A stretch of 26,496 nt of DNA, taken from a virus. The notes under the pieces are model-generated. The model made no database searches. It saw only the letters and a list, made by a program, of their open reading frames with translations, and was not told the origin of the DNA. A program made the translations under genes and the position numbers. The stretch lies in the IMG/VR virus record IMGVR_UViG_3300042898_006144, positions 1 to 26,496 of that record; one strand, given 5' to 3'. The first letter of the stretch is position 1; every line of letters starts with the position of its first letter. Of the stretch, positions 1,579 through 26,259 are shown one piece after another.

Positions 1579-4500
1579 ATGCCAGAAAATAATAAAGACA
1601 ATCAGCCGTTAGACTTTGCAGAAAAGGTCTTACAAACCCTAAAAAGAACTTCTCGTGCGGTTGACTTAAATGAACCAATTGCTTCTTCCGTAAATAGAGA
1701 TTTTACTGCTTATGGTGCACAAGAAGCAGGTGACCCAGGCCCAGGATCCGGTGGTAATAAAGACATCGTTATCATTCCTGGGTTTGGTGGTGCTGCAGCT
1801 TCTTCAACCTCTCAAGTAAACTTTTATTGGAGTGCTCCTGCTGTTCCAGACTCTACTGGTATTGATAACAATGTCAGAGCTACAATATATAACTATGCAA
1901 TTTCTGCAACAAGACCAACTCTTGTAATTGGTGGTTATGATGGTACAAATCAATACAAACCAATTGCAAACTATGGTACTGGTACTGGTATTACTGCAAA
2001 AATTTGGTTCCATCCATTTTTAGGTAGAATTGATGCTGACCAGTTTGGATTTAACACATTAGCAGCTACTGGCGTTTCCACAGCAACAGGTATTCTTACA
2101 TGGGATACAACACAAAATAAAATTAGAGTTGGTGTAGCTGGCATTGCTAAAACTCTTGCATATACAGATGACATTTCTCCATTCTCAGGATCAGCTACAA
2201 CTGCAAGTAATTTAAATTTAGCAACTTCTGCAACTCAAACATCAAGCCACTACTTGACAATGTCAGCATCACAAACAGCAACTGGAGTTGCTGGTGCTGC
2301 AATTTCAACTGTTTCTACAGTCTTTGTAGTTCCAAATACTGGAGTCGTAAATGCTACTGGTTTCTCTGGTAATGTAACAGGTACCGTATCTGGTAATTTA
2401 ACTGGAAATGTATCGGGTTCAATTACAGGTAACCATTCAGGTAATGTTACAGGTAACGTATCAGGTAATCTTACTGGTGGTGTATCAGGTAATGTGACTG
2501 GAAACGTAACAGGTACTGTTTCAGGTAACGTGACTGGAAACGTTTCAGGTAACCTAACAGGAAATGTATCAGGTAATGTTACAGGCGGTGTATCTGGAAA
2601 TGTTACAGGTAATGTATCAGGCAACCTTACAGGAAACGTATCAGGTAACCTTACAGGTAATGTTACCGGAATTGCAACTACTGCTAGTGGTGTTACACAG
2701 CTCCTTGCCACAACTTCTTCTGAGAACTTTGTTACCTTTAGCCCTTTCGGAACAAGCTTAGTTGGTGCAGGAGTATCAGTAGCAACTTCATTCAAATTTG
2801 TTCCTAGCTCTGGAGTTGTAATAGCTACCGGATTCTCTGGAAATGTCACTGGGACTGTTTCAGGTAATGTCACCGGTAATGTATCGGGTTCAATTACAGG
2901 TAACCATTCAGGTAACGTAACTGGTAACGTATCAGGCAATGTTACTGGTGGTGTTTCAGGTAATGTAACTGGAAACGTGACTGGAACTGTTTCAGGTAAC
3001 GTAACTGGTAATGTATCAGGTAACATAACAGGTGGTGTTTCTGGAAATGTTACTGGAAATGTAACGGGTACAGTTTCAGGTAACGTAACAGGGAATGTAT
3101 CAGGTAACCTTACAGGAAATGTATCAGGTAACCTTACAGGAAACGTTTCTGGAAATGTTACAGGTAATGTTTCTGGAATTGCCACTACTGCCAGTGGTGT
3201 TACACAACTTCTTTCATTAACTTCTGCAGAGAACTTTGTTACCTTTAGTCCTTATGGAACTAGTTTAGTAGGATCAGGAGTATCTGTAGCAACAGCATTC
3301 AAATTTGTCCCAAGTTCTGGAGTGGTAATAGCCACTGGATTCTCTGGAAATGTTACTGGAACTGTATCTGGTAATGTAACAGGCAATGTATCGGGTTCAA
3401 TTACAGGTAACCATTCAGGTAATGTTACAGGTAATGTATCAGGTAACCTTACTGGTGGTGTTTCAGGTAATGTAACAGGCAACGTAACAGGAACTGTATC
3501 CGGTAACGTAACAGGTAATGTTTCAGGCAACCTTACAGGTAATGTTTCAGGCAATGTAACAGGAAATGTTTCTGGCAATCTTACTGGTAACGTTACTGGA
3601 TTTGCCACTACCTCACAACATGTTAACGTTGTAGCAGCAGATACTGCAACAGGTAACCATTTCCTCCCATTTGTCAGAGCTCAAGCTGGTTCAGGTCTTG
3701 CGTTATCAACAGACAACACTTTGTATTATGACCCTACAGGCAATATCTTATATTCAACAAACTTTAATGGAGCATTCACTGGTACAATTTCAGGTATAGC
3801 AACCACAGCAGCTAACATGGTTGTAAATAATGCTGCAGAAAGTACTACCCATTACATCTTGATGTCTCCTACCCCTACAGGTGCTGGAGTTGCAGTTTCT
3901 TCTGATGCCACATTTACTATCAATCCTAGTACAAATGCTTTGTCAATGGGTACTGGTAATATAACTGTAAACTCTGTTACCGTAGGAAGCGCTGCGAGAA
4001 CAGTTTCAACATCTACTGGCAACCTTATATTAGATTCAAGTGGTGGTCAAGTTGATATTGCTGATAACGTAGTTATTACAGGAAACTTAACTGTTCAAGG
4101 AACAACACTTACAGTTGACTCAACTGTTTCTACAATTGTTGATCCTGTTATTGTGGTTGGATCAGGCGTTGGAGGGACACACTCTACAGCTGATAATAAC
4201 CAAGATAGAGGTATTGAATTTAGATGGTCCAATGCTGGTACTGCTACTACTGGATTCTTTGGATTCTCTGACACTGATGGTAGATTCAAATTTATCCCAA
4301 ATGCAACAACTGTAGCTGGTTCTAACGTTTATACTGGAACAGTTGGGACAATAAATTCTAGTATATCAGGTAACGTCACAGGAACTGTATCCGGTAATGT
4401 TACTGGAAATGTTTCAGGAAGCGTAACTGGTAACGTATCAGGAAACCTTACAGGTAACGTTTCTGGAAATGTCACTGGTGGTGTTTCAGGTAATGTTACT

Positions 4501-6597
4501 GGAAATGTTACAGGCACCGTTTCTGGCAATGTAACTGGCAACGTATCAGGAAACCTTACAGGAAACGTATCAGGTAATGTTACGGGCGGTGTATCTGGAA
4601 ATGTAACTGGAAACATAACAGGAACTGTTTCAGGTAACGTAACTGGTAATGTATCAGGTAACCTAACAGGTGGTGTATCAGGAAATGTTACTGGTAATAT
4701 CACAGGAACTGTATCAGGCAACGTAACTGGTAACGTATCAGGTAATCTAACTGGTAACGTATCAGGTAACCTTACAGGTAACGTTTCTGGAAATGTAACA
4801 GGTAATGTTACTGGAATTGCAACTACTGCTAGTGGCGTTACACAGCTCCTTGCTACAACTTCTTCTGAGAACTTTGTTACCTTTAGCCCTTTTGGAACTA
4901 GTTTAGTAGGAGCTGGAGTATCTGTTGCAACAGCGTTCAAATTTGTTCCTAGTTCTGGAGTTGTAATAGCTACTGGATTCTCTGGTAATGTGACTGGAAC
5001 TGTTTCAGGAAACGTAACTGGTAATGTATCGGGTTCAATTACAGGTAACCATTCAGGTAATGTGACAGGTAATGTTTCAGGAAATGTCACAGGTGGTGTA
5101 TCAGGTAATGTGACTGGAAACGTGACTGGAACTGTTTCAGGAAATGTAACTGGAAATGTTTCAGGAAACCTTACAGGTGGTGTATCAGGTAACGTAACTG
5201 GAAATGTAACAGGAACTGTTTCAGGAAATGTAACAGGTAACGTTTCAGGAAACCTTACAGGTGGTGTATCAGGTAACCTTACAGGAAATGTTTCTGGAAA
5301 TGTAACTGGAAACGTAACAGGAATTGCTACCACTGCTAGTGGCGTTACACAAATTCTTGCTACTACTTCCTCTGAAAACTTTGTTACCTTTAGTCCTTTT
5401 GGAACTAGCTTAGTAGGAGCAGGAGTATCTGTTGCAACAGCGTTCAAATTTGTTCCTAGCTCTGGAGTTGTAATAGCAACTGGATTCTCAGGCAACGTCA
5501 CAGGTACTGTATCCGGTAACGTAACTGGAAATGTATCGGGTTCCATTACAGGTAACCATTCAGGTAACGTAACTGGAAACGTATCAGGTAACCTAACTGG
5601 TGGTGTTTCTGGTAACGTTACTGGTAATGTAACAGGAACTGTATCAGGTAACGTAACAGGTAATGTATCTGGAAACCTTACAGGTGGTGTATCAGGAAAT
5701 GTAACAGGTAATGTAACAGGAACTGTTTCAGGTAACGTAACTGGAAACGTATCTGGAAACCTTACTGGTGGTGTTTCTGGCAATGTAACAGGTAATGTAA
5801 CAGGAACTGTTTCTGGCAACGTAACTGGAAACGTATCAGGAAACCTCACTGGTAACCATTCAGGTAACGTAACTGGTAACGTATCAGGTAACCTTACTGG
5901 AAACGTTAGTGGTACAGCTACAACAGCTCAAAACTTGAATGTTGGTTCAACTCTCGCAACTACTAACTATATATTGTTATCTTCATTAGCAACTGGTGCT
6001 GGTGTTGCAGTTTCTACAGATACAAACTTAGCTTATAATGCTTCAACAGATACATTAACTCTCAACAATATTGTTGGTAGTGGAGCTGGTTTGACTCTTA
6101 CAGCAACTTCTGCAATTACAAATAGTTCATATTTAACAATTCAGACTGTTTCTGGAGATGACAACTCTACAAGTGACTTCTTTATAAGGGGTATCAATTC
6201 AACAGCAACTTCAAAATTCTCTGTTGATGCAAATGGAAACTTAAGAGCTACAACTAAGAGCTTTGATATTCCACACCCTACAAAAGAAGGCAAGAGACTT
6301 GTATACGGTGTTCTTGAAGGACCTGAACATGGTGTATATCATAGAGGAACAGTTGAAGGTAAGGGAAATATCATAGTAGAACTTCCTGAATACTGGACAA
6401 AACTTGTAAATCAAGAATATTCAATTCATCTTACATCATGGGGTAACTATGGAGTTCAAATCTTAGAAAAAGCTCCTAGTTCCTTTATAATATCAGCAAC
6501 TGGTAATCCATTTACTAAGAAATTTAAATCAATCAAGGTTGACTATATAGTTCACGGTTCAAGAAAAGATGCACATTTAGATATTGAACAAGATTAG
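1579..6597 (+). CDS. Giant repeat-rich tail-fibre protein
   Basis: 1672 residues; GGAG at 1568-1571 supports the start. Residues 1-60 are a charged N-terminus. Residues 60-260 are a unique region with G-F-G-G and NFYWSAPAVPD segments. Six arrays of G-[NTGSH]-[VLI]-[ST] tetrapeptides follow, at roughly residues 262-364, 420-533, 589-674, 929-1079, 1134-1248 and 1304-1444. Four arrays are preceded or separated by near-identical 55-residue modules (GVTQLLATTSSENFVTFSPF to KFVPSSGVVIATGFS). Residues 675-928 include VVITGNLTVQGTTLTVDST and GIEFRW, motifs usual in T4-like cyanophage and pelagiphage fibres. The cap (KSFDIPHPTK, LEGPEHGVYHRG, IIVELPEYW) spans about 1556-1672. Likely a long trimeric shaft protein; the arrays may form a beta-helical or beta-prism stem. 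The adjacent short fibre and LamG genes fit a host-recognition locus. Confidence 0.85.
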   Translation: MPENNKDNQPLDFAEKVLQTLKRTSRAVDLNEPIASSVNRDFTAYGAQEAGDPGPGSGGNKDIVIIPGFGGAAASSTSQVNFYWSAPAVPDSTGIDNNVRATIYNYAISATRPTLVIGGYDGTNQYKPIANYGTGTGITAKIWFHPFLGRIDADQFGFNTLAATGVSTATGILTWDTTQNKIRVGVAGIAKTLAYTDDISPFSGSATTASNLNLATSATQTSSHYLTMSASQTATGVAGAAISTVSTVFVVPNTGVVNATGFSGNVTGTVSGNLTGNVSGSITGNHSGNVTGNVSGNLTGGVSGNVTGNVTGTVSGNVTGNVSGNLTGNVSGNVTGGVSGNVTGNVSGNLTGNVSGNLTGNVTGIATTASGVTQLLATTSSENFVTFSPFGTSLVGAGVSVATSFKFVPSSGVVIATGFSGNVTGTVSGNVTGNVSGSITGNHSGNVTGNVSGNVTGGVSGNVTGNVTGTVSGNVTGNVSGNITGGVSGNVTGNVTGTVSGNVTGNVSGNLTGNVSGNLTGNVSGNVTGNVSGIATTASGVTQLLSLTSAENFVTFSPYGTSLVGSGVSVATAFKFVPSSGVVIATGFSGNVTGTVSGNVTGNVSGSITGNHSGNVTGNVSGNLTGGVSGNVTGNVTGTVSGNVTGNVSGNLTGNVSGNVTGNVSGNLTGNVTGFATTSQHVNVVAADTATGNHFLPFVRAQAGSGLALSTDNTLYYDPTGNILYSTNFNGAFTGTISGIATTAANMVVNNAAESTTHYILMSPTPTGAGVAVSSDATFTINPSTNALSMGTGNITVNSVTVGSAARTVSTSTGNLILDSSGGQVDIADNVVITGNLTVQGTTLTVDSTVSTIVDPVIVVGSGVGGTHSTADNNQDRGIEFRWSNAGTATTGFFGFSDTDGRFKFIPNATTVAGSNVYTGTVGTINSSISGNVTGTVSGNVTGNVSGSVTGNVSGNLTGNVSGNVTGGVSGNVTGNVTGTVSGNVTGNVSGNLTGNVSGNVTGGVSGNVTGNITGTVSGNVTGNVSGNLTGGVSGNVTGNITGTVSGNVTGNVSGNLTGNVSGNLTGNVSGNVTGNVTGIATTASGVTQLLATTSSENFVTFSPFGTSLVGAGVSVATAFKFVPSSGVVIATGFSGNVTGTVSGNVTGNVSGSITGNHSGNVTGNVSGNVTGGVSGNVTGNVTGTVSGNVTGNVSGNLTGGVSGNVTGNVTGTVSGNVTGNVSGNLTGGVSGNLTGNVSGNVTGNVTGIATTASGVTQILATTSSENFVTFSPFGTSLVGAGVSVATAFKFVPSSGVVIATGFSGNVTGTVSGNVTGNVSGSITGNHSGNVTGNVSGNLTGGVSGNVTGNVTGTVSGNVTGNVSGNLTGGVSGNVTGNVTGTVSGNVTGNVSGNLTGGVSGNVTGNVTGTVSGNVTGNVSGNLTGNHSGNVTGNVSGNLTGNVSGTATTAQNLNVGSTLATTNYILLSSLATGAGVAVSTDTNLAYNASTDTLTLNNIVGSGAGLTLTATSAITNSSYLTIQTVSGDDNSTSDFFIRGINSTATSKFSVDANGNLRATTKSFDIPHPTKEGKRLVYGVLEGPEHGVYHRGTVEGKGNIIVELPEYWTKLVNQEYSIHLTSWGNYGVQILEKAPSSFIISATGNPFTKKFKSIKVDYIVHGSRKDAHLDIEQD
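2362..3600 (+). repeat. Coding tetrapeptide (12-base) repeat arrays, first group
   Basis: Three in-frame arrays (about 2362-2670, 2836-3177 and 3343-3600) of a 12-base unit encoding G-N-V-[ST], with G, T, S or H in place of N and L or I in place of V. Example: GNVTGNVSGNLTGNVSGNVT. Units with the same peptide use different synonymous codons (GGT/GGA/GGC, AAT/AAC, GTA/GTT/GTG/GTC, TCA/TCT, ACA/ACT), so protein identity exceeds DNA identity. The arrays are separated by non-repeat modules. Confidence 0.9.
2410..5567 (+). repeat. Five near-invariant 35-base elements encoding V-S-G-S-I-T-G-N-H-S-G-N
   Basis: Copies lie at 2410-2444, 2881-2915, 3388-3422, 5026-5060 and 5533-5567. Each begins GTATCGGGTTCAATTACAGG (the fifth copy has one synonymous change, TCA to TCC) and continues through a His codon. 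They use the TCG serine codon that I do not see in the surrounding repeats. The flanking repeats vary freely at synonymous sites while this element stays fixed. Each copy sits at the same place, shortly after the FSGNVTGTVSGN that follows the unique module. Confidence 0.85.
2671..5487 (+). repeat. Four copies of a 55-residue fibre module
   Basis: Copies at about 2671-2835, 3178-3342, 4815-4977 and 5323-5487 encode I-A-T-T-A-S-G-V-T-Q-[LI]-L, then ENFVTFSPFGTSLVG (Y for F in the second copy), then FKFVPSSGVVIATGFSG. They differ at a handful of residues and at many synonymous sites. Each separates two tetrapeptide arrays, so the fibre is built from about 170-residue super-repeats (module plus array). 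A more diverged version (S-S-H-Y-L-T-M-S to VVPNTGVVNATGFSG) precedes the first array at about 2210-2361. Confidence 0.85.
4363..5910 (+). repeat. Coding tetrapeptide repeat arrays, second group
   Basis: Three further arrays of the G-[NTGSH]-[VLI]-[ST] unit, at about 4363-4814, 4978-5322 and 5488-5910, after the unique middle of the giant fibre gene. The GNV / GGV / GTV / GNL units follow a repeating order (N, T, N, N, G, N, N, T). The last array carries two His-containing GNHS units. The antisense strand is open through most of this region because of the repeat composition. I regard that as a by-product. Confidence 0.85.
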
Positions 6598-6937: not shown

Positions 6938-9900
6938 ATGCCTACTGATGTCATCATAGACCCTAGTACAGGTCAGATATATTGGAACGATAGTGCTGTA
7001 TCAGCACAGTCGATTTCTATTAAGGGTGATGCTCAGAACACAATTTCCATAGTAGGTTATTCTGGTTCTTTTTCTCCTGGTTCTGCTCCAGGTGGAGCAA
7101 CAACATTAGCAACATTTACCGATAATAGTGGTACTGATGCCCTCATACCTGGTACTAATGGATATGATCTAGGAAAAGATACAGCGAGATGGAGATTGTT
7201 TGCCACTTCAGGTGCTTTTTCTGGTGAAGTCAATATTGCTTCTACTACACAATCAACGTCATTATTATCTGGCGCAATTAAAATTCAGGGTGGTTTGGCA
7301 GTAAGCTCTAATGCTTCTATAGGTCAAACATTATTCTTTTACAACCCATCAAATGCACTTTTTACTGCATTTAGAGCAGGAGCAGCAGCTGCTTCAACCA
7401 CTTATACCTTACCAACAAACTCTCCACAGTCTTCTGTAGGAACATCAGTATTGTCATCAACAATTGCTGGTGTGATGAGTTGGGTGCCTTTAGCTTCTAG
7501 TGGATCAGGATCATCTGAAGTATATACAGGTGCTCTTTATGACGTAGCGTATTTTGCTGCAGCAGGTGCCACAGTTCAAGGCTCGTCCACATTAATTAAC
7601 AACACTGCATCAGGGCAAGTAAAAATCAGCCATACAACTGCATCATTTGGCACATCTTCAGGAGCGCTTCAAGTTGCTGGTGGCGTGGGTATTAGTGGTA
7701 GGCTCTCATTTAATCAAGCATCATTTGGCACTACTGGTATCACCACAGTGCCGACAATGGCTATGATTGGTCAAACTGGTGACCCAATTTTTCTATCAGT
7801 TTTGGAAGACAATTCTATAGTATTTGAAGGCTCACAAGGACAATTATTTTCAATCAGCCCCAATTTATCTACTGGCTATATTTGGGCAGTTAATGATATT
7901 TCTGGTATTCCTTTATTAAGAGCTAATGTTTCAGGAAATGTTTTTATAAATGAATTTGGTGGACTTGTAGGCTTAGGACATACAAATCCAGCTTATAAAT
8001 TTCATGTAAGGGGTTCATCAGCTTTTGCAACTACAAATGGTGCAAGTGCTATCAGTTTCTTATTTGATAATATAAGTGCTCCGGGAAGTAATACTTTTCA
8101 AATTAAATCTGCTAACTCTATACAGCTTTATAATTCTGCAGATACTTTCTACACAGCACTAAAATCAAATGCTTCAACTAACGTAACATATACTCTTCCA
8201 GCAACAGATGGTTCAAATGGTCAAGCTTTAACAACCAACGGATCTGCAACCTTATCATGGACGACGATTTCAGGTGGATCAGGGGGAGGAGGAACGGGCG
8301 TACAACCAGGTGGAGAATTTGAGATTGCCTATTATGCTTCAACGGGTTCATCTGTAGTAGGGTCTTCAACTTTCAAAAATGATACGACAGCTGCAAAAGT
8401 ATCTGTAACTCATACAACTACATCGATATCTTCGTCTACGGGAGCTTTAGTTGTTTCAGGTGGAGTCGGTATTGGTGGAAGTTTATGGGTATCTGGCATT
8501 GGTGCTAGTATCAGTGGTGTTAGGCTTTCACACAGTATCGCATATGGATCATTCGTAGGTAATGTTACTGGAAATGTATCTGGAACTGTAACAGGCAATG
8601 TTCAAGGCAATGTTACTGGCAATGTTTCTGGTACAGTTACTGGAAACGTTCAAGGCAATGTGACAGGTAACGTATCAGGGACAGTCACTGGAAATGTTCA
8701 AGGTAACGTCACTGGTAATGTTTCTGGAAATTTGACCGGAAATGTAACAGGCTTAGCTACCACTAGTAATAACATTCAAGTTGCAATTGGCGCAGAAAAC
8801 TTAAGTCATACTTTACTATTTACAAGACCAACAAGTACAGTTTCAGGCTCAGGTGGCATAGCAGTTTCAAATGACCTAACACTGTTCTTTAATCCAAGCA
8901 CTGAAATTTTATCAGTTTCTGGATTAGCTGTTACTTCCGCATTAAATTCAATTTCTTCTACAACTGGAGCCCTTAATGTTGTGGGTGGTGTTGGAGTTGG
9001 GCAATCTGTTTCAATACGTGGAAGTTTACAAATGTTTAGTGCATCAAATTACACTGCATTTGTAAGCGGAGCAACAGCAAACACAACTTACACTCTTCCA
9101 GTAAACACTCCTCAGTCTTCTGCTGGAACTTCAGTTTTATCTTCTACAATTGCTGGTGTAATGAGCTGGGTGCCTCTCGCATCTTCATCAGGATCTGGTC
9201 TAGCAACTACTGCTAATAATATTTATGTAAATATACTAGGTAATCCAAACGTTTTTCATCCATTATTGGTAACTCCGGCTCAGTTGTCAGCGGGTTCTGC
9301 AGTTTCAGCAAATGGAACTTTACTTTATAACCCATCTACTGATTATCTTCACACACCTGGCTTAGCAGTTACATCTGGTCTTGATTCAAGTAGTACAACT
9401 ACAGGAGCTCTTCAAGTAAGAGGTGGAATCGGAGTAACAGGCACAGGATATTTTGATGTTGTAAGAACAAGAGCAATAGTCACAACAGGTGATGTGACAA
9501 TTGCTGGAAATTTAGCAGTAAATGGTTCTACAATTGACTTTGGTAATGCAACTACAGATTCTATTTCATTTATAGGAAGAGTAGACACCGACGTAGATCC
9601 AATAGCTACTAATACTTATGATTTAGGTGAAAGCAGCTTAGTATGGAAAAATGTTTCTATTGGAAGCTCAGTAATTTTCTATAATACGAGTAATGCAAAT
9701 ACCTTAGGATTCAGAGCTGGAGCTTCTGGAGCAAGTCTTATTTATGTTTTACCAATAGATACTCCTAATGCAGGGCAAGTATTAGCTGCCTCAGCTGCTT
9801 CCGGCGGTGTAGTTACATTATCTTGGGAAGATGATCAAACTGGCGCTCCTGCAGGTGGAATTACTACTCTTAATACTCTTACTGCTGCATCTCAATCTTT

Positions 9901-11716
9901 TCAAACTGGTACAACTGGCACTGATTTTGCAATTTCTTCTGCAACATCAACCCATACATTTAATTTACCAGATGCCAGTGCTACTGCAAGAGGTGTTATT
10001 ACAACAGGCGCTCAAACAATAGCTGGTTCAAAAACATTTAGTTCAGCAATTTTAGGTAATGTTTCAGGCAATGTTACAGGAGGCGTTTCTGGAAATGTAA
10101 CTGGTAATGTCACAGGTAATGTTTCAGGCAATGTTACTGGCGGAGTATCAGGTAACGTTACTGGAAACTTAACAGGAAACGTTTCAGGTAATGTTACAGG
10201 TGGAGTATCAGGAAATGTAACTGGAAACATGACTGGTAATGTTTCTGGAAATGTTACAGGTGGTGTGTCAGGAAATCTTACTGGAAATGTAGTTGGTATT
10301 GCAATAACTGCTGGAAGCACTCACGTTAGTATTGCTTCTGCAGCAACTGCTCACGCTATTACAGTAGTTCCAACAACTTCCGCTCAAGTAACTGTTGGAA
10401 TTGGTCAATCTATTGTTAGTGGTGTCACTGTCTTAGCTAGTACAGGTGTTATAACTGCTGGAGGTTTCTCAGGTAATGTAACAGGAACCGTATCGGGAAA
10501 TGTTACAGGCAATCTTTCAGGTTCTGTTACAGGTAATGTCCAAGGTAATATTACAGGTAACGTATCAGGTACAGTAACTGGAAACGTACAAGGCAACGTC
10601 ACTGGTAATGTTTCTGGAACGGTAACTGGAAATGTTCAAGGTAACGTCACAGGTAATGTTTCTGGTAACCTTACTGGTAATGTAACTGGATTAGCCACTA
10701 CTAGTAATAACATTCAAGTTGCAATTGGATCTGAAAACTTAAGTCACACATTATTATTTACAAGACCATCAAGCACTGTTTCTGGTTCAGGTGGAATTGC
10801 AGTATCTCAAGATTTAACTTTATTCTTTAACCCATCTTCAGAAATTTTATCTACTTCAGGGTTGGCTGTTACTTCAACCACTAATTCTATTTCTTCTACA
10901 TCAGGTGCTTTAATTGTCACAGGTGGAGCAAGTGTTGGCCAATCTCTTTCAATTGGTGGTCGTTTACAGCTATTCAATTCTTCATTAAGCACTGCATTTG
11001 TAAGTGCTCAAGCTGGTGTCAACACTACATATACCCTGCCTACAACATCTCCAGCAGCAACAGGAACTTCAGTATTATCATCTACAATGGCTGGAGTTAT
11101 GTCTTGGGTCCCTTTAACTTCAACTGTTGGGGGAAGTGGTACGCCTGGTGGAAGTAATAAACAAATTCAATATAATAACGCTTCTTCATTTGGGGGAGCT
11201 GCTGGATTTGAATATACAACAGGTGGTATAGCAATTACTGTTGGATTCTTTGCTCCATCTGGTCTTGGTTACACTTCAGGTCTTTGGGTCAACGCAATAA
11301 ATGGCTCAACAACAAGAATTGGTATTGGTCTTTCCAATCCACAATTTGAATTAGAAATCTTAGGTGAACTTTCTGCTACAAACAAAAGCTTCGTAATCAA
11401 CCACCCAACAAAGTCTGGATTAAAACTAAGATATGGTAGTTTAGAAGGCCCAGAAAACGGTGTGTATGTTCGTGGAGAATTAAAAGGAACTAATATAATT
11501 GAAGTTCCTGATCACTGGGTTGGACTTGTGCATGAAGATTCTTACACTGTTCACCTTACTCCTATTGGTAAATACGCTCAGCTTTATGTTGAAAAAATTG
11601 AAAATTACAATGTTTTTGTAGCTGAGAATAATAACTCCTATATACATTGTTATTATAGTGTTTGGGCTGAAAGAAAAGATATACCTAAACTAGTCACAGA
11701 ATATGAGGCACAGTAA
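6938..11716 (+). CDS. Second giant tail-fibre protein
   Basis: 1592 residues, preceded by AAGGAA. The N-terminus has the fibre entry TDVIIDPSTGQIYWNDSAV and NGYDLGKDTARWRLF (residues 69-90), a [YF]-D-L-G-x-x-x-x-x-W motif usual in phage fibres and seen again as TYDLGESSLVWKNV near residue 890. Middle modules such as TYTLPTNSPQSSVGTSVLSS occur three times. Three tetrapeptide arrays lie at about residues 541-604, 1040-1118 and 1179-1250; two of them use a V-Q-G variant unit (GTVTGNVQGNVTG). The cap (KSFVINHPTK, YGSLEGPENGVYVRG, IIEVPDHW) spans about 1480-1592. It shares architecture with the 1672-residue fibre but not the same modules, so the two may form different fibres or parts of one composite fibre. 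The next LamG gene starts at the base after its stop. Confidence 0.85.
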   Translation: MPTDVIIDPSTGQIYWNDSAVSAQSISIKGDAQNTISIVGYSGSFSPGSAPGGATTLATFTDNSGTDALIPGTNGYDLGKDTARWRLFATSGAFSGEVNIASTTQSTSLLSGAIKIQGGLAVSSNASIGQTLFFYNPSNALFTAFRAGAAAASTTYTLPTNSPQSSVGTSVLSSTIAGVMSWVPLASSGSGSSEVYTGALYDVAYFAAAGATVQGSSTLINNTASGQVKISHTTASFGTSSGALQVAGGVGISGRLSFNQASFGTTGITTVPTMAMIGQTGDPIFLSVLEDNSIVFEGSQGQLFSISPNLSTGYIWAVNDISGIPLLRANVSGNVFINEFGGLVGLGHTNPAYKFHVRGSSAFATTNGASAISFLFDNISAPGSNTFQIKSANSIQLYNSADTFYTALKSNASTNVTYTLPATDGSNGQALTTNGSATLSWTTISGGSGGGGTGVQPGGEFEIAYYASTGSSVVGSSTFKNDTTAAKVSVTHTTTSISSSTGALVVSGGVGIGGSLWVSGIGASISGVRLSHSIAYGSFVGNVTGNVSGTVTGNVQGNVTGNVSGTVTGNVQGNVTGNVSGTVTGNVQGNVTGNVSGNLTGNVTGLATTSNNIQVAIGAENLSHTLLFTRPTSTVSGSGGIAVSNDLTLFFNPSTEILSVSGLAVTSALNSISSTTGALNVVGGVGVGQSVSIRGSLQMFSASNYTAFVSGATANTTYTLPVNTPQSSAGTSVLSSTIAGVMSWVPLASSSGSGLATTANNIYVNILGNPNVFHPLLVTPAQLSAGSAVSANGTLLYNPSTDYLHTPGLAVTSGLDSSSTTTGALQVRGGIGVTGTGYFDVVRTRAIVTTGDVTIAGNLAVNGSTIDFGNATTDSISFIGRVDTDVDPIATNTYDLGESSLVWKNVSIGSSVIFYNTSNANTLGFRAGASGASLIYVLPIDTPNAGQVLAASAASGGVVTLSWEDDQTGAPAGGITTLNTLTAASQSFQTGTTGTDFAISSATSTHTFNLPDASATARGVITTGAQTIAGSKTFSSAILGNVSGNVTGGVSGNVTGNVTGNVSGNVTGGVSGNVTGNLTGNVSGNVTGGVSGNVTGNMTGNVSGNVTGGVSGNLTGNVVGIAITAGSTHVSIASAATAHAITVVPTTSAQVTVGIGQSIVSGVTVLASTGVITAGGFSGNVTGTVSGNVTGNLSGSVTGNVQGNITGNVSGTVTGNVQGNVTGNVSGTVTGNVQGNVTGNVSGNLTGNVTGLATTSNNIQVAIGSENLSHTLLFTRPSSTVSGSGGIAVSQDLTLFFNPSSEILSTSGLAVTSTTNSISSTSGALIVTGGASVGQSLSIGGRLQLFNSSLSTAFVSAQAGVNTTYTLPTTSPAATGTSVLSSTMAGVMSWVPLTSTVGGSGTPGGSNKQIQYNNASSFGGAAGFEYTTGGIAITVGFFAPSGLGYTSGLWVNAINGSTTRIGIGLSNPQFELEILGELSATNKSFVINHPTKSGLKLRYGSLEGPENGVYVRGELKGTNIIEVPDHWVGLVHEDSYTVHLTPIGKYAQLYVEKIENYNVFVAENNNSYIHCYYSVWAERKDIPKLVTEYEAQ
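8558..8749 (+). repeat. Tetrapeptide array with V-Q-G variant, copy 1
   Basis: An in-frame 12-base unit array in the second giant fibre encodes G-N-V-[ST], G-T-V-T and G-N-V-Q in a repeating order (GNVTGNVSGTVTGNVQ). The Gln-containing unit is absent from the first giant fibre. The array leads into the duplicated 145-residue module starting at 8750. Confidence 0.85.
8750..9187 (+). repeat. Duplicated fibre module, copy 1
   Basis: About 145 residues from GLATTSNNIQVAIG to SWVPLASS. The second copy at 10688-11122 has the same order: GLATTSNNIQVAIG, HTLLFTRP, STVSGSGGIAVS, DLTLFFNPS, SGLAVTS, TYTLP, AGVMSWVPL. Many synonymous and some amino-acid differences show the duplication is not recent. 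A shorter third relative (FRAGAAAASTTYTLP to SWVPLASS) lies near 7368-7500. Confidence 0.85.
10055..10293 (+). repeat. Tetrapeptide array with G-G-V units
   Basis: The second array of the second giant fibre has a higher-order 20-residue period (GNVSGNVTGGVSGNVTGNVT). It has no Gln units and ends in VVGIAITAG. It lies between the YDLG module and the second copy of the V-Q-G array. Confidence 0.85.
10472..10687 (+). repeat. Tetrapeptide array with V-Q-G variant, copy 2
   Basis: Same unit order as the array at 8558-8749 (G-T-V-T, G-N-V-Q, G-N-V-T, G-N-V-S). It is followed by the second copy of the GLATTSNN module, so array and module were duplicated together. Confidence 0.85.
10688..11122 (+). 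repeat. Duplicated fibre module, copy 2
   Basis: Paralog of 8750-9187, about 145 residues, starting GLATTSNNIQVAIGSENLSH and ending MSWVPLTS. It is followed directly by a Gly-rich linker and the region leading to the C-terminal cap. Confidence 0.85.
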
Positions 11717-20084: not shown

Positions 20085-20918
20085 ATGAGAGTCTGTGCAG
20101 TTCAATTAAATTTGAAACATTGCGCAGACTATGCTTCTTTTGTAAGTTATCTGCAAAAAGAAGTATTTGACAATCTACTTATCGTACCTGATTTATTAGT
20201 ATTTCCAGAAAATATAAATCTTTGTCTATTATTTGCTAAAAAAGATAAAAGTTTTGAAACCAAAAATTTCAAAACTTTTATTGAACTTGTATTTGATAAA
20301 TTTATAAGGTTGTTTGATTTATCTTTTTTATTAAGATGGTTTGATATAGATAATCAACGTTTCATCATCTTAAAAGCTTTTTCATATTTTGCTAAGAAAT
20401 ATAATACAAATATAATTGTTGGGACATATTATCATTCAAAGCAAGGCAAAATTTATAATTCTGTAGCAATGATAGATTCATTTGGTTTTTTCTTAGGAGA
20501 AGTTCATAAGAAAAAACTAACAGGATTTGAAAAAGCTCTCAAATTGGGTGTTCAAGAAGATTCAGTCATTGTTGAAAGTTCTGTAGGTAATATTGGGCTT
20601 TCAATATGTTATGATATCAACTATCCTGATTATATAAAATCAATATGTGATTTAGGTGCTGATATTGTTGTGTGCCCCTCAAATGGATGGAGGCCTTTCC
20701 CTGGATATCCTTATGATCCTAAAAAAGAAAAGCCTCACATTGACCGAGCAAAAGAAAATAATGTAATTGTTATAAGACCTTATTGTGCAGGTTGGTTATT
20801 TCCATTATATTTTCAAGGCCACACTGAAATTATAGATGGTAATGGAAATTTATTAAATAGATCTTACACATATAACAGAACAGAATTAGTTATCAGTGAA
20901 ATTAATAAGGAAGTCTGA
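20085..20918 (+). CDS. Carbon-nitrogen hydrolase (nitrilase superfamily)
   Basis: 277 residues, the usual length for this alpha-beta-beta-alpha amidohydrolase family. The catalytic triad is visible: Glu42 in VFPEN, Lys142 in GEVHKKKL, and Cys175 in GLSICYDINYP. Other family marks are NIIVGTYYH and KIYNSVAMID before the Lys, and DIVVCPSNGWRPFPG after the Cys. Residues 50-95 hold a helical insertion rich in Phe and Lys. The substrate cannot be read off; family members hydrolyse amides, nitriles or carbamoyl compounds, including omega-amides and N-carbamoyl compounds. It lies directly after two probable virion genes and ends convergently with the lysin gene (17-base overlap). An N-terminal fragment of a second copy lies 1.5 kb upstream. 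Confidence 0.85.
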   Translation: MRVCAVQLNLKHCADYASFVSYLQKEVFDNLLIVPDLLVFPENINLCLLFAKKDKSFETKNFKTFIELVFDKFIRLFDLSFLLRWFDIDNQRFIILKAFSYFAKKYNTNIIVGTYYHSKQGKIYNSVAMIDSFGFFLGEVHKKKLTGFEKALKLGVQEDSVIVESSVGNIGLSICYDINYPDYIKSICDLGADIVVCPSNGWRPFPGYPYDPKKEKPHIDRAKENNVIVIRPYCAGWLFPLYFQGHTEIIDGNGNLLNRSYTYNRTELVISEINKEV

Positions 20919-22686: not shown

Positions 22687-22831
22687 AGAGGAAATAAATA
22701 AGATTAAAATTCCTAAGTTTCAAATCTGGGAAAAGAACTTTGAAGAAACAAAAGTTTTACTTGAAAAGTTTTTAGGAGTCCATTTTGAGACAGATGAAAA
22801 GAAAACTTATTATATGGTAAAGAAAAAATGA
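22622..22831 (+). CDS. Small basic protein of unknown function, start unresolved
   Basis: The reading frame ends with TGA overlapping the next start (ATGA), which argues that its 3' half is translated: IPKFQIWEKNFEETKVLLEK, then FLGVHFETDEKKTYYMVKKK. No ATG is usable unless one accepts a long antisense overlap with the minus-strand gene (in-frame ATG at 22439). Options are the TTG at 22622 used here (no ribosome site), an ATT at 22703 with GAGG 11 bases upstream, or the out-of-frame ATG at 22641 joined by a one-base slip on the T7 run at 22645-22651. The family is unknown. Confidence 0.45.
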   Translation: MTSTIIDDFFRASKITTYSYNKEEINKIKIPKFQIWEKNFEETKVLLEKFLGVHFETDEKKTYYMVKKK

Positions 22832-23478
22832 AAAAAATTGTTATTTTGCTTTTTGTTCTCTTGTTATGTTCAAGCTCTTTTGCTCAATCTAATATTACTT
22901 TAGACTTAAAAGATGCCCCAGTAAGAAGTAGCTTAGAAATGATTTTTAAGCAAGCTGGTATCAAGAATTATGTAATCGATAATTCTGTAGCTGGATTTGT
23001 TACTTGCACACTTACTGATCAGCCATTTGAGAATTCTTTAAAGCTTATAATGAGAGCTAACACTACTCCTCTTACATATACAAAAGAAAATGATGTTTAT
23101 ATTGTAAAATCAAGAAGAATTGTAATTGAGGCAAATCCTGAACCTAGTTCTTATGCTGACTTTATAATGGAAACAAGTAGAAATTCAACAACTTGGGAAA
23201 AGATATCTCTTACTTTTATTGATCCTGTTGATTTGATGTCAGCTTTTGGTAATATCTTGCTTATTAATCAATTTAGTAGATATACAGGTGGAATGAATGG
23301 AAGTGGTATGGGCAACTTTGGCGGTGGTAATGGTAGTGGCTCTTTCGGAGGCAATGGAGGCTTTGGAATGGGCGCTGGTAACGGAATGGGCGGAGGAGCA
23401 ATGGGAGGCTTTGGCGGTGGAGCCTTTGGTGGAATGAATGGTGGAATAGGTGGATTTGGTGGTGGTAGAAATTTCTAA
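22828..23478 (+). CDS. Secreted protein with secretin-type N0/STN domain and Gly-rich tail
   Basis: 216 residues. Signal peptide MKKIVILLFVLLLCSSSFAQ, with cleavage expected after Ala19 (type I; the LLLC stretch is a poor lipobox). Residues about 22-96 match the secretin and TonB short N-terminal domain: ITLDLKDAPVRSSLEMIFKQ, then the G-I-K-N-Y-V-I-D-N and V-A-G-F-V-T-C-T-L segments, then SLKLIMRANTTPLTY and NDVYIVKS. Residues 115-145 (ISLTFIDPVDLMSAFG) resemble the start of a secretin N1 domain. Instead of the channel domain there is a 65-residue Gly/Met/Phe/Asn-rich tail. It would be exported to the host periplasm. Possible roles are interaction with a host secretin complex, exclusion of other phages, or lysis or egress. 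These are inferences. Confidence 0.7.
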   Translation: MKKIVILLFVLLLCSSSFAQSNITLDLKDAPVRSSLEMIFKQAGIKNYVIDNSVAGFVTCTLTDQPFENSLKLIMRANTTPLTYTKENDVYIVKSRRIVIEANPEPSSYADFIMETSRNSTTWEKISLTFIDPVDLMSAFGNILLINQFSRYTGGMNGSGMGNFGGGNGSGSFGGNGGFGMGAGNGMGGGAMGGFGGGAFGGMNGGIGGFGGGRNF

Positions 23479-24033: not shown

Positions 24034-24456
24034 ATGTGGTACAAACTTTCTCAACAAATTGATATTGGACTTCAAAACTCTCCCTCTGCTTTAGGCCCAA
24101 ATACTGGAATTTTTGCTCCTTTTGCTGAATCTGAAAAGCTAAGAAAAGCTCTTGAAGCTGGAACTTATGTTGTTATTACAGGTCAAAATGGAGAAAAGCT
24201 TTTAGGATTACATGGTTCTAAAAATCTTGAAGGTGAATATTGCGGACAAATTTCAAAGAATGACATTAGATGCGGACAAGACTTTGATGATTGGCTAACA
24301 CAACAAGGATTCAAGGGTATGCAAATTGTTACATGTCAAGGTGGGATGCTTCCAGATTCTTTGACAAACGTAAAAGCCCCTATTCAAGTTGGTTTTCCTA
24401 TCGCTCCAGATCCAACAAATCCTAACAACCCAGTATTTGTCTCTGTACAAAAATAA
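24034..24456 (+). CDS. Unknown protein
   Basis: 140 residues starting MWYKLSQQIDIGLQN. Residues 45-105 look like a small beta-rich domain with TYVVITGQNGEKLLGLHGSK and two G-E/R-Y/C-C-G-Q segments (GEYCGQISKNDIRCGQDFDD). The C-terminus is Pro/Asn-rich (FPIAPDPTNPNNPVFV). No family is recognised. The stop overlaps the SOD start (TAATG), which suggests coupled expression with SOD. Both proteins begin with a short hydrophobic stretch ending L-S-Q. Confidence 0.6.
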   Translation: MWYKLSQQIDIGLQNSPSALGPNTGIFAPFAESEKLRKALEAGTYVVITGQNGEKLLGLHGSKNLEGEYCGQISKNDIRCGQDFDDWLTQQGFKGMQIVTCQGGMLPDSLTNVKAPIQVGFPIAPDPTNPNNPVFVSVQK

Positions 24457-25124
24457 TGAACTTTATAACTAGCACAATTATTCTTTCACAAAAAAAAGAA
24501 AAAGTAGAAGCAACAGGTTTTGAATTTCAAAAGCTACCATATTCTTTTGATTTTTTAGAACCTGTAATTGATGCTGAAACTATGAAAATTCATCATACAA
24601 AGCATCAAAAGAAATACTTTGATAATATGATGGATATAATCGATAAGAACTCTAAATTACAAAAGCATAATTTAGTAGATCTTATGTCAAATTTAAACTT
24701 AGTCCCTTCTGAATCAAGAGAAAAGTTTAAAAACAATGCTGGTGGATATTTCAATCATTCTTTCTTCTGGAATGTAATGACAACTGAAAAGCCAGTTTAT
24801 TCAGGAGCTATTAAAAAACTTATTGATAAAAAGTTTGGCTCTTTAGATAAATTCAAAATTGAATTTATCAAAACAGGAATGGATCATTTTGGTTCTGGTT
24901 GGATTTGGTTATGTACAGAAGACGGAACAAGTTTAAAGCTTTCTTCTATGCCAAATCAAAATAATCCATATATTGAAGAATGCGGCAAGCCTCTCATAGG
25001 TTGTGATTTATGGGAACATGCATACTATTTAAAATATCAAAACGATAGAGAAAAATACTTAAAGAAATGGTATGAATTGATAAATTGGGATTTTGTCAAT
25101 GAAACCTTAGAGAGCTACAAATGA
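24456..25124 (+). CDS. Superoxide dismutase, Fe/Mn family (Mn-like)
   Basis: 222 residues with all four metal ligands: His46 (IHHTKHQKKY), His101 (NNAGGYFNHSFFW), Asp184 and His188 (GCDLWEHAYYLKY). Tyr54 occupies the gateway position. The active-site Gln appears to be Gln168 (MPNQNNPY), as in Mn enzymes, with Gly97 where Fe enzymes carry Gln. I therefore predict Mn or cambialistic use. It converts superoxide to oxygen and hydrogen peroxide in the cytosol. The first 25 residues (to KVEATGFEFQ) extend beyond the usual start at KLPYSF. Long insertions around residues 65-90 are within family range. It overlaps the Dps-like gene by 4 bases (ATGA). Confidence 0.92.
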   Translation: MNFITSTIILSQKKEKVEATGFEFQKLPYSFDFLEPVIDAETMKIHHTKHQKKYFDNMMDIIDKNSKLQKHNLVDLMSNLNLVPSESREKFKNNAGGYFNHSFFWNVMTTEKPVYSGAIKKLIDKKFGSLDKFKIEFIKTGMDHFGSGWIWLCTEDGTSLKLSSMPNQNNPYIEECGKPLIGCDLWEHAYYLKYQNDREKYLKKWYELINWDFVNETLESYK

Positions 25125-25495
25125 ACATAATTACAAATTTATTAACAATTCAAAATCAGATGAGAGTGTTTCACTGGCAAACACAAAAGAAGCCTGGAAG
25201 CTTTGCACAACATGAAGCATTTGGTACTGCTTATGAAGATCTAGACCCGCTAATTGATGATTTTATTGAAGTTTATCAAGGCAAAAAAGGCGCTTTAATG
25301 GGCAAGCAAGGATTCACTGTAAAGCTAGTCAATCTTTCTGATGATGCTGAATCTTTTATTGATGACGCAATTGAATATTTTAGAGTTTATTTGCCAAAAT
25401 CATTAGACTCAAATGTAGATACTGATTTACTCAATATTAAAGATGAAATGATGGCAATTTTGAATCAAACTAAGTATCGCTTGCACATGATGTAA
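25121..25495 (+). CDS. Dps/ferritin-like four-helix protein
   Basis: 124 residues, predicted all-helical. Residues 11-54 follow the Dps ferroxidase pattern: QNQMRVFHWQT, then SFAQHEAFGTAYEDLDPLID, then DFIEVYQG. Dps proteins show H-W, H-x-x-F-x-x-x-Y and D-x-x-A-E. By alignment His18, His31, Asp46 and Glu50 match Dps ligands, but the Asp four residues after the second His is Gly35. The protein is shorter than Dps (about 160) and lacks the N-terminal DNA-binding tail. I recall related small proteins in T4-like phages (possibly DUF5856). Iron or peroxide handling is inferred from these residues and from coupling to SOD; iron storage is not shown. Confidence 0.6.
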   Translation: MNIITNLLTIQNQMRVFHWQTQKKPGSFAQHEAFGTAYEDLDPLIDDFIEVYQGKKGALMGKQGFTVKLVNLSDDAESFIDDAIEYFRVYLPKSLDSNVDTDLLNIKDEMMAILNQTKYRLHMM

Positions 25496-25668
25496 TGAAA
25501 AATTTCTTTAAAGATTCTAGTTGGATTGTGAAGGTGGTGGCATTTGCTACCGCCTTCACTGTTTTGTATGAGTTTGTAAAAGATTTAGGTGAAATAGCAG
25601 TTCACGTTTATCATTTTATTGCAATTATTTTTGGTTTAGGTTTGACTTATAAGAGAAAAAATGGATAA
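25495..25668 (+). CDS. Small membrane protein with two predicted helices
   Basis: 57 residues, starting MKNFFKDSSWIVKVVAFATA and ending TYKRKNG. The ATG overlaps the previous stop (TAATG) and the stop overlaps the next gene by 8 bases, so the frame fits the packed gene order. Residues about 10-28 and 34-51 are hydrophobic and could span the membrane. The turn (KDLGE) is charged and the tail is basic (YKRKNG). Small two-helix proteins include class II holins, but the lysin gene is 4 kb away on the other strand, so holin is only a possibility. Confidence 0.6.
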   Translation: MKNFFKDSSWIVKVVAFATAFTVLYEFVKDLGEIAVHVYHFIAIIFGLGLTYKRKNG

Positions 25669-25888
25669 CTGGACATTCAATAATCCTACTAAAGTAAAAT
25701 TAGTAGAAACGTTGTCTTATTTAGGTGTAAGTAGAAACTTAATGATTCAGAGTACAGAAATTACTTATTTTTTGTCAATTGAACAATTAGAATCTATATA
25801 TGAAAACTTGTCAAAGAAGCAAAAAAAAGCTAAACCAGGAAGAGTAATATTAGAAATAATTGATTTCAAAAAAAATTATCCTGAATAA
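25661..25888 (+). CDS. Unknown small protein
   Basis: 75 residues, starting MDNWTFNNPTKVKLVETLSY, probably a compact helical domain (LVETLSYLGVSRNLMIQS, then SIEQLESIYENLSKKQKKAK). The basic KKQKKAKPGR stretch could contact nucleic acid, but no known motif is present. It overlaps the small membrane protein gene by 8 bases. Its last 13 bases overlap the convergent Fe-S protein gene. Confidence 0.55.
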   Translation: MDNWTFNNPTKVKLVETLSYLGVSRNLMIQSTEITYFLSIEQLESIYENLSKKQKKAKPGRVILEIIDFKKNYPE

Positions 25889-26259
25889 CCACAGCCTCCA
25901 CAAGAATCATGCTCTTCACCTTCAACACTAAAAGATTTTGAACATCCACAACTTTTAGCTGCATTTGGATTTTCTACTTTGAATCCTGTCTTTATACCAT
26001 CTTGCATGTAGTCAACAATTGCTCCATTTAAGTATCGGGCAGAGTTATTATCAACCACAATCATAATATCTTTATCATATACTACGACATCATCAATTTC
26101 TGGCTCGCCTTCTGAAATAGCCAAGCCATACTGAAGACCTGAGCATCCACCACCCGCAACATAAAAATATAAATGTGGAGAGGTTGATTCAATATCAGAA
26201 AATGATTCTTTAATCTTTTCTGCTGCAACATCTGTAATTTGTACTTGAAAATTATCCAT
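25876..26259 (-). CDS. A-type iron-sulfur carrier protein (IscA/ErpA/HesB family)
   Basis: 127 residues. The three cluster-ligand cysteines are present: Cys39 in AGGGCSGLQYG, and Cys104 and Cys106 in NPNAAKSCGCSKSF. Other family marks are VVVDNNSARYLNGAIVDYMQ and GFKVENPNA. It would bind and deliver Fe-S clusters in the cytosol. Unlike ordinary A-type proteins, which end soon after C-G-C-G-x-S-F, it has a 15-residue tail with a second Cys pair (Cys120 and Cys123 in DSCGGCGYSG). HesB-like proteins are known in marine T4-like phages. The start overlaps the stop of the upstream minus-strand gene by 8 bases. Confidence 0.88.
   Translation of the reverse strand: MDNFQVQITDVAAEKIKESFSDIESTSPHLYFYVAGGGCSGLQYGLAISEGEPEIDDVVVYDKDIMIVVDNNSARYLNGAIVDYMQDGIKTGFKVENPNAAKSCGCSKSFSVEGEEHDSCGGCGYSG

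Follow-up and report, generated by a model that had tools for sequence, protein, structure and literature searches.

Whether a superoxide dismutase (SOD) gene and the adjoining gene of a small Dps-like protein act together in a phage is the question raised by positions 24034–25668 of IMG/VR record IMGVR_UViG_3300042898_006144. We analysed positions 1–26,496 of this record, and the whole stretch of 26,496 nucleotides is referred to as the window. According to the original prediction, the two genes form a coupled two-step detoxification module, in which the SOD produces peroxide and the Dps-like protein consumes it with Fe(II).

The locus is organized into four open reading frames on the plus strand, all of which were found where predicted. 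They encode a 140-residue protein of no assigned family with the leader MWYKLSQ (24034–24456), the 222-residue SOD (24456–25124), the 124-residue Dps-like protein (25121–25495), and a basic 57-residue protein with one hydrophobic stretch (25495–25668). The predicted overlaps of one, four, and one nucleotides at the three junctions are present. However, overlaps of one or four nucleotides occur at 8 of 23 same-strand junctions in the window, 74 of 309 in the 358-kb contig of a sister phage (G001), and 60 of 252 in a 316-kb contig (G023). Since such overlaps are present at roughly one in three or four of these junctions, the coupling of the SOD and Dps-like genes is ordinary, and the overlap was dropped as evidence for it.

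The 140-residue protein has no match in Pfam or PHROG, its structure model is poor (pLDDT 57), and its gene evolves fast (dN/dS of approximately 0.45 between the window and G001). Its homologues are located 5′ of the SOD gene in G001 (MWYRYSQ, 29% identity) and G023 (MSWYRLAQ, 24%). The 57-residue protein also matches no Pfam or PHROG family. Its gene was not found in G001, which rules the protein out as a member of the predicted module, and in G023 its place is taken by an unrelated-looking 124-residue membrane protein. A 75-residue protein of no assigned family (25661–25888, plus strand) is kept 3′ of the Dps-like gene, with a 42% identical homologue in G001 and a similar 81-residue reading frame in G023. 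Positioned tail to tail with the operon is the gene of an IscA/HesB-type iron-sulfur cluster assembly protein (25876–26259, minus strand), which matches PF01521 above the cut-off and TIGR00049 with 104 bits against a cut-off of 58.8. It is 70% identical to its counterpart in G001 and occupies the same place in G023.

Several other genes of the window could be characterized. Two very long, probably fibre-like proteins (1579–6597 and 6938–11716) contain repeats of the GNVTGNVSGN type and share a C-terminal module (LEGPEHGVY...). The protein encoded at 20085–20918 is a carbon-nitrogen hydrolase (PF00795), 53% identical in G001. The protein encoded at 22828–23478, 70% identical in G001, has a signal-peptide-like start and a glycine-rich tail, and displays weak similarity to the N-terminus of the filamentous-phage protein IV/secretin (phrog_1012, E-value 1e-8).

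The SOD scores 76.4 bits against PF00081 (cut-off 27) and 130 bits against PF02777 (cut-off 20.9), and its residues 20–221 match SODs in the PDB with E-values down to 1e-59. The metal ligands were predicted to be complete, and His46, His101, Asp184, and His188 are indeed present and aligned in register with those of cellular and other viral SODs. The protein also contains the gate residue Tyr54, and Gln168 together with Gly97, a combination that we take to point to an Mn-type or cambialistic enzyme and not to an Fe-type one. An extension of approximately 20 residues precedes the SOD domains. The dN/dS ratio of approximately 0.07 between the window and G001 indicates strong purifying selection. 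Judged from its residues, the window SOD looks catalytically intact.

The 124-residue protein belongs to the family DUF5856 (PF19174, 55.2 bits against a cut-off of 34.6) and to phrog_858. The residues singled out in the original prediction, His18, His31, Gly35, Asp46, and Glu50, are all present, and the positions +4, +15, and +19 from His31 reproduce the ligand spacing of Dps. Thus, four of the five Dps ferroxidase ligands (His, His, Asp/Glu, Asp, Glu) are found in the window copy, with glycine at the remaining position 35. Among 51 distinct DUF5856 homologues, His31, Asp46, and Glu50 are conserved in all 51 and His18 in 50, so the match to the Dps pattern is not due to chance. The metal-ligand positions are the most conserved ones of the family. 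Position 35, that of the fifth ligand, is occupied by glycine in 32 homologues, aspartate in 15, glutamate in three, and asparagine in one. The gene is under strong purifying selection (dN/dS of approximately 0.12, window against G001).

A search of the PDB with the single 124-residue sequence did not recover the relationship to Dps. A profile built from 17 homologues identified Bacillus anthracis Dlp-1 (E-value 3e-6) and Dlp-2, B. subtilis MrgA, and Helicobacter pylori NAP, and its alignment places His18, His31, Asp46, and Glu50 on the Dps ferroxidase ligands. The monomer predicted by AlphaFold2 is a four-helix bundle (helices 3–22, 28–56, 76–93, and 101–123; pLDDT 87). A Foldseek comparison with Dps and ferritins had been proposed as a check, and in the search against the PDB Dps and bacterioferritin do come first, with probabilities of up to 0.97 and TM-scores of up to 0.68, although with E-values of 0.3 or higher. 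Among viral models, the Foldseek matches are proteins of phages and pithoviruses, with a crAss-like “DpsA” further down the list. The original prediction was to fail if the predicted fold did not bring the four residues together. The Dps ferroxidase site lies between two subunits, and the fold of a monomer is therefore ill-suited to judging it.

The 124-residue protein is similar to the Dps mini-ferritins named above in profile, order of helices, and the spacing of the histidine from the aspartate at +15 and the glutamate at +19. In contrast, it is shorter (124 versus approximately 145–165 residues) and has glycine in place of the fifth ligand. The short BC helix is not seen in the model, in which residues 57–75 form a loop predicted with lower confidence. 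The protein is acidic (pI 4.9) and lacks the basic DNA-binding tail, and the ferritin family PF00210 is not among its Pfam matches at E-values up to 1. Because of these three absences, we do not file the protein as a Dps. The claim of a Dps-like protein is thus borne out by the profile, the predicted fold, and the pattern of ligands. The glycine at the fifth ligand and the missing tail speak against the predicted detoxification pathway. The combined profile and model evidence indicates that DUF5856 is a divergent relative of Dps and mini-ferritins, in which one ligand has changed in a large subgroup, and that the 124-residue protein probably works like a Dps. The name DUF5856 was not found in the literature searched.

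The SOD–DUF5856 pair is not confined to the window. A survey of phage genomes for this adjacency, proposed with the original prediction, identified it in G001 (88% identity for SOD, 83% for DUF5856) with the same four-nucleotide overlap, and in G023 with one gene (724 bp) in between. In the window and both contigs, a gene with an MWY-type leader precedes the SOD gene, and DUF5856 is followed by a small gene of no known family and the IscA-like gene on the opposite strand. The latter completes a conserved neighbourhood concerned with iron and reactive oxygen species. The terminase of G001 has only approximately 26% identity to its nearest match, from a 485-kb uncultured phage. In a second lineage (G003 and G024), approximately 1.3 kb separate DUF5856 from a divergent SOD-like gene (27% identity). 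In the product of this gene, the first histidine ligand seems to be out of register, and the score of the N-terminal domain stays below the cut-off. Of 54 virus records with DUF5856, many of them fragments, SOD was detected in four (not certified as complete), in each case near DUF5856, and in none of the other 50. In G072, G078, and Vibrio phage 2.275, the two genes are approximately 78–161 kb apart. At 12 other loci, the neighbours of DUF5856 include no common partner and are a mixture of replication genes, head genes, and genes of no identified family. Because most DUF5856 records lack SOD and three phages have the genes far apart, the adjacency is lineage-specific: it is real in two lineages, and not general.

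We favour the reading that a lineage of uncultured giant phages conserves an iron and oxidative-damage neighbourhood of SOD, an Fe(II)-handling DUF5856 protein, and IscA-like repair, and assign to it a probability of about 0.5. Gene identity, the conservation of the ligands and of the pair, the predicted class of fold, and purifying selection are shown by the analysis, whereas we infer the enzymatic activities, the metal used, the oligomeric state, any joint action, and when and where the proteins would act. The SOD would remove superoxide. The DUF5856 protein, as a shortened Dps/ferritin relative, would most likely bind and oxidise Fe(II) at a putative site composed of His18 and His31 from one subunit and Asp46 and Glu50 from its neighbour, and this capture would keep the iron out of contact with peroxide and the DNA of the phage. 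Where superoxide has damaged iron-sulfur clusters, the IscA-like protein would restore them. Together, the three proteins would limit Fenton damage to phage DNA, and part of the activity of the DUF5856 protein may take place within the virion. The SOD–DUF5856 pair is thus plausibly used to protect phage DNA from oxidative damage. The intact-looking SOD, its Dps-like partner, and the adjacency in other genomes speak for the predicted two-step module, whereas the lineage-specific nature of the adjacency and reports of DUF5856 homologues in virions speak against it.

These reports give rise to another explanation, that DUF5856 is mainly a DNA-associated protein of the virion interior, and the SOD an independent gene of a shared late operon or transcript. 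Some DUF5856 homologues carry N-terminal leaders (MIKNFSDFINE in L022, positions 2716–3141; MIKKFDEFLNE in L023, positions 758–1183; MQTFNEITE in phage RB16) which, in our view, resemble the capsid-targeting sequence of phage T4. The leader pattern in RB16 is a weak signal, only slightly above background (5 of 250 reading frames versus 5 of 1069 internal methionines). No head-targeting leader was found on the SOD or DUF5856 protein of the window, the latter of which begins directly in helix A. Phage phiR1-37 encodes a DUF5856 homologue, g280 (29% identity), whose annotation is that of a phage structural protein. In purified virions of Klebsiella Jiaodavirus, a “starvation-inducible transcriptional regulator” was detected with 26 and 27 peptide spectra and listed as DNA-associated (PMC13119998), the link to DUF5856 being this shared label. 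Klebsiella phages with the same label are the largest group of DUF5856 matches. The evidence suggests that DUF5856 relatives are virion proteins, and the window copy may therefore be a DNA-associated protein that is packaged, and not a step of a pathway. The abundance of long fibre-like and other late-type genes in the rest of the window, and the routine occurrence of short overlaps, agree with this explanation. However, the window copy is acidic and leaderless, and a purely structural role leaves unexplained why conservation in the family is highest at the metal ligands. We regard the explanation as possible but somewhat unlikely; it is compatible with a protective function of the pair.

The phages that carry the phrog_858 “starvation-inducible transcriptional regulator” include the Pseudotevenvirus phages RB16 and RB43, Klebsiella phages, phiR1-37, and Microcystis phage Mel-JY01. 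Their proteins belong to the same family as the window protein according to the curated cut-off and share its four conserved residues. In contrast to the window, SOD does not adjoin these genes, and many of the proteins have aspartate or glutamate at the fifth ligand or an N-terminal leader.

A different leader, MWY[KR]x[AS]Q, recurs on unrelated proteins, including the one encoded from position 24034 of the window (leader at 24034–24054). In G001, 15 of 396 reading frames begin with MWY (0.19 expected, p = 8e-24), internal MWY is absent, and no homology among the 15 proteins is detectable. Methionine followed by zero to two residues and WY is enriched in G023 (12 of 320) and G002 (6 of 425), and the leader type is absent from RB16. 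The protein sets concerned (L165–L182 from G001, L284–L299 from G023, and L300–L318 from G002) include a NUDIX hydrolase and a PcfJ-like protein. It is possible that the leader is a packaging or targeting tag. As a speculation to which we give low odds, the MWY-tagged protein, SOD, and Dps-like protein might constitute an antioxidant set inside the giant-phage head, delivered with the DNA.

The SOD could also be the working part of the pair, as an auxiliary metabolic gene for the infected cell, if DUF5856 bound a metal or ligand in another manner, without ferroxidase chemistry. The replacement of one Dps ligand by glycine in 32 of the 51 homologues and the missing BC helix and basic tail are in line with this, as is a published proposal that SOD serves bloom phages as a viral helper gene (PMC12542629). 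The near-invariance of the other four ligands and the joint presence of both genes in three giant phages make it unlikely.

SOD genes of phages were predicted to be uncommon, which holds for named phage records, where 28 of 50,697 contain matches, some of them probably bacterial contamination. It does not hold for IMG/VR, in which at least 554 stretches with SOD-domain relatives were confirmed. Among the IMG/VR matches listed is a sizeable group of contigs from aquatic viruses that encode SOD domains within proteins of 513–915 residues (for example, L113:5896–7431, L100:5599–7677, and L148:5944–8676). In the contigs examined, these fused genes have a helicase gene on one side and a head-tail adaptor-like or neck-like gene on the other, with a tail-sheath-like gene nearby, and their product may be a virion protein that contains an SOD domain. 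Like the window, the Wroclawvirus phages Callisto and PA5oct (sodB), Vibrio phage 2.275, and the T4-like contigs with fused SODs are large tailed phages with SOD-domain genes. The window SOD differs from theirs in belonging to a separate clade and in being unfused. DUF5856 was not found in the two Wroclawvirus genomes tested, and in Vibrio phage 2.275 it is located 161 kb from the SOD, unlike in the window.

A tree of 59 rows groups the three giant-phage SODs in a single clade (support 100/99), which sits on a long branch and is separate from every cellular SOD sampled. The separate clade, together with at most approximately 48% identity to cellular relatives, indicates that the capture of the gene is old, and both the tree and a scan of genome contigs disfavour a recent one. 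A recent capture of the SOD from a host, with no fixed role for the gene, might be suggested by the lineage-specific adjacency and the frequent acquisition of host genes by large phages, but is highly improbable given this clade, the distance to cellular SODs, and the purifying selection.

The idea of antioxidant phages is not new, since phage-encoded Dps and catalase were proposed to act against oxidative stress in gut phages (PMC8008677), and a helper role of SOD has been published for bloom phages, as cited above. Host dps and catalase rise during infection by phage YerA41 (PMC7354516). Similar to the window, Gratiaviridae and other gut phages encode members of the ferritin superfamily, there Dps and manganese catalase, with a proposed role against oxidative stress (PMC8008677). 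In gut Bacteroidetes phages, catalase occurs with Dps, whereas in the window SOD occurs with a divergent DUF5856, in unrelated giant phages. Phage SOD and phage Dps-like genes are both already known, and their pairing is the main new point.

DUF5856, a family widespread in phages and usually labelled as a transcriptional regulator, is now linked to the Dps/ferritin superfamily by profile and model, with a conserved metal-ligand pattern. If its homologues are really present in virions, it becomes a testable question whether phages package mini-ferritins with their DNA. If the set carried in the head were real, it would guard the incoming genome against superoxide, peroxide, and iron before the transcription of phage genes begins. 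Judging from the conserved neighbourhood of SOD, DUF5856, and IscA-like genes, some giant phages may maintain a defence of their own against iron and superoxide.
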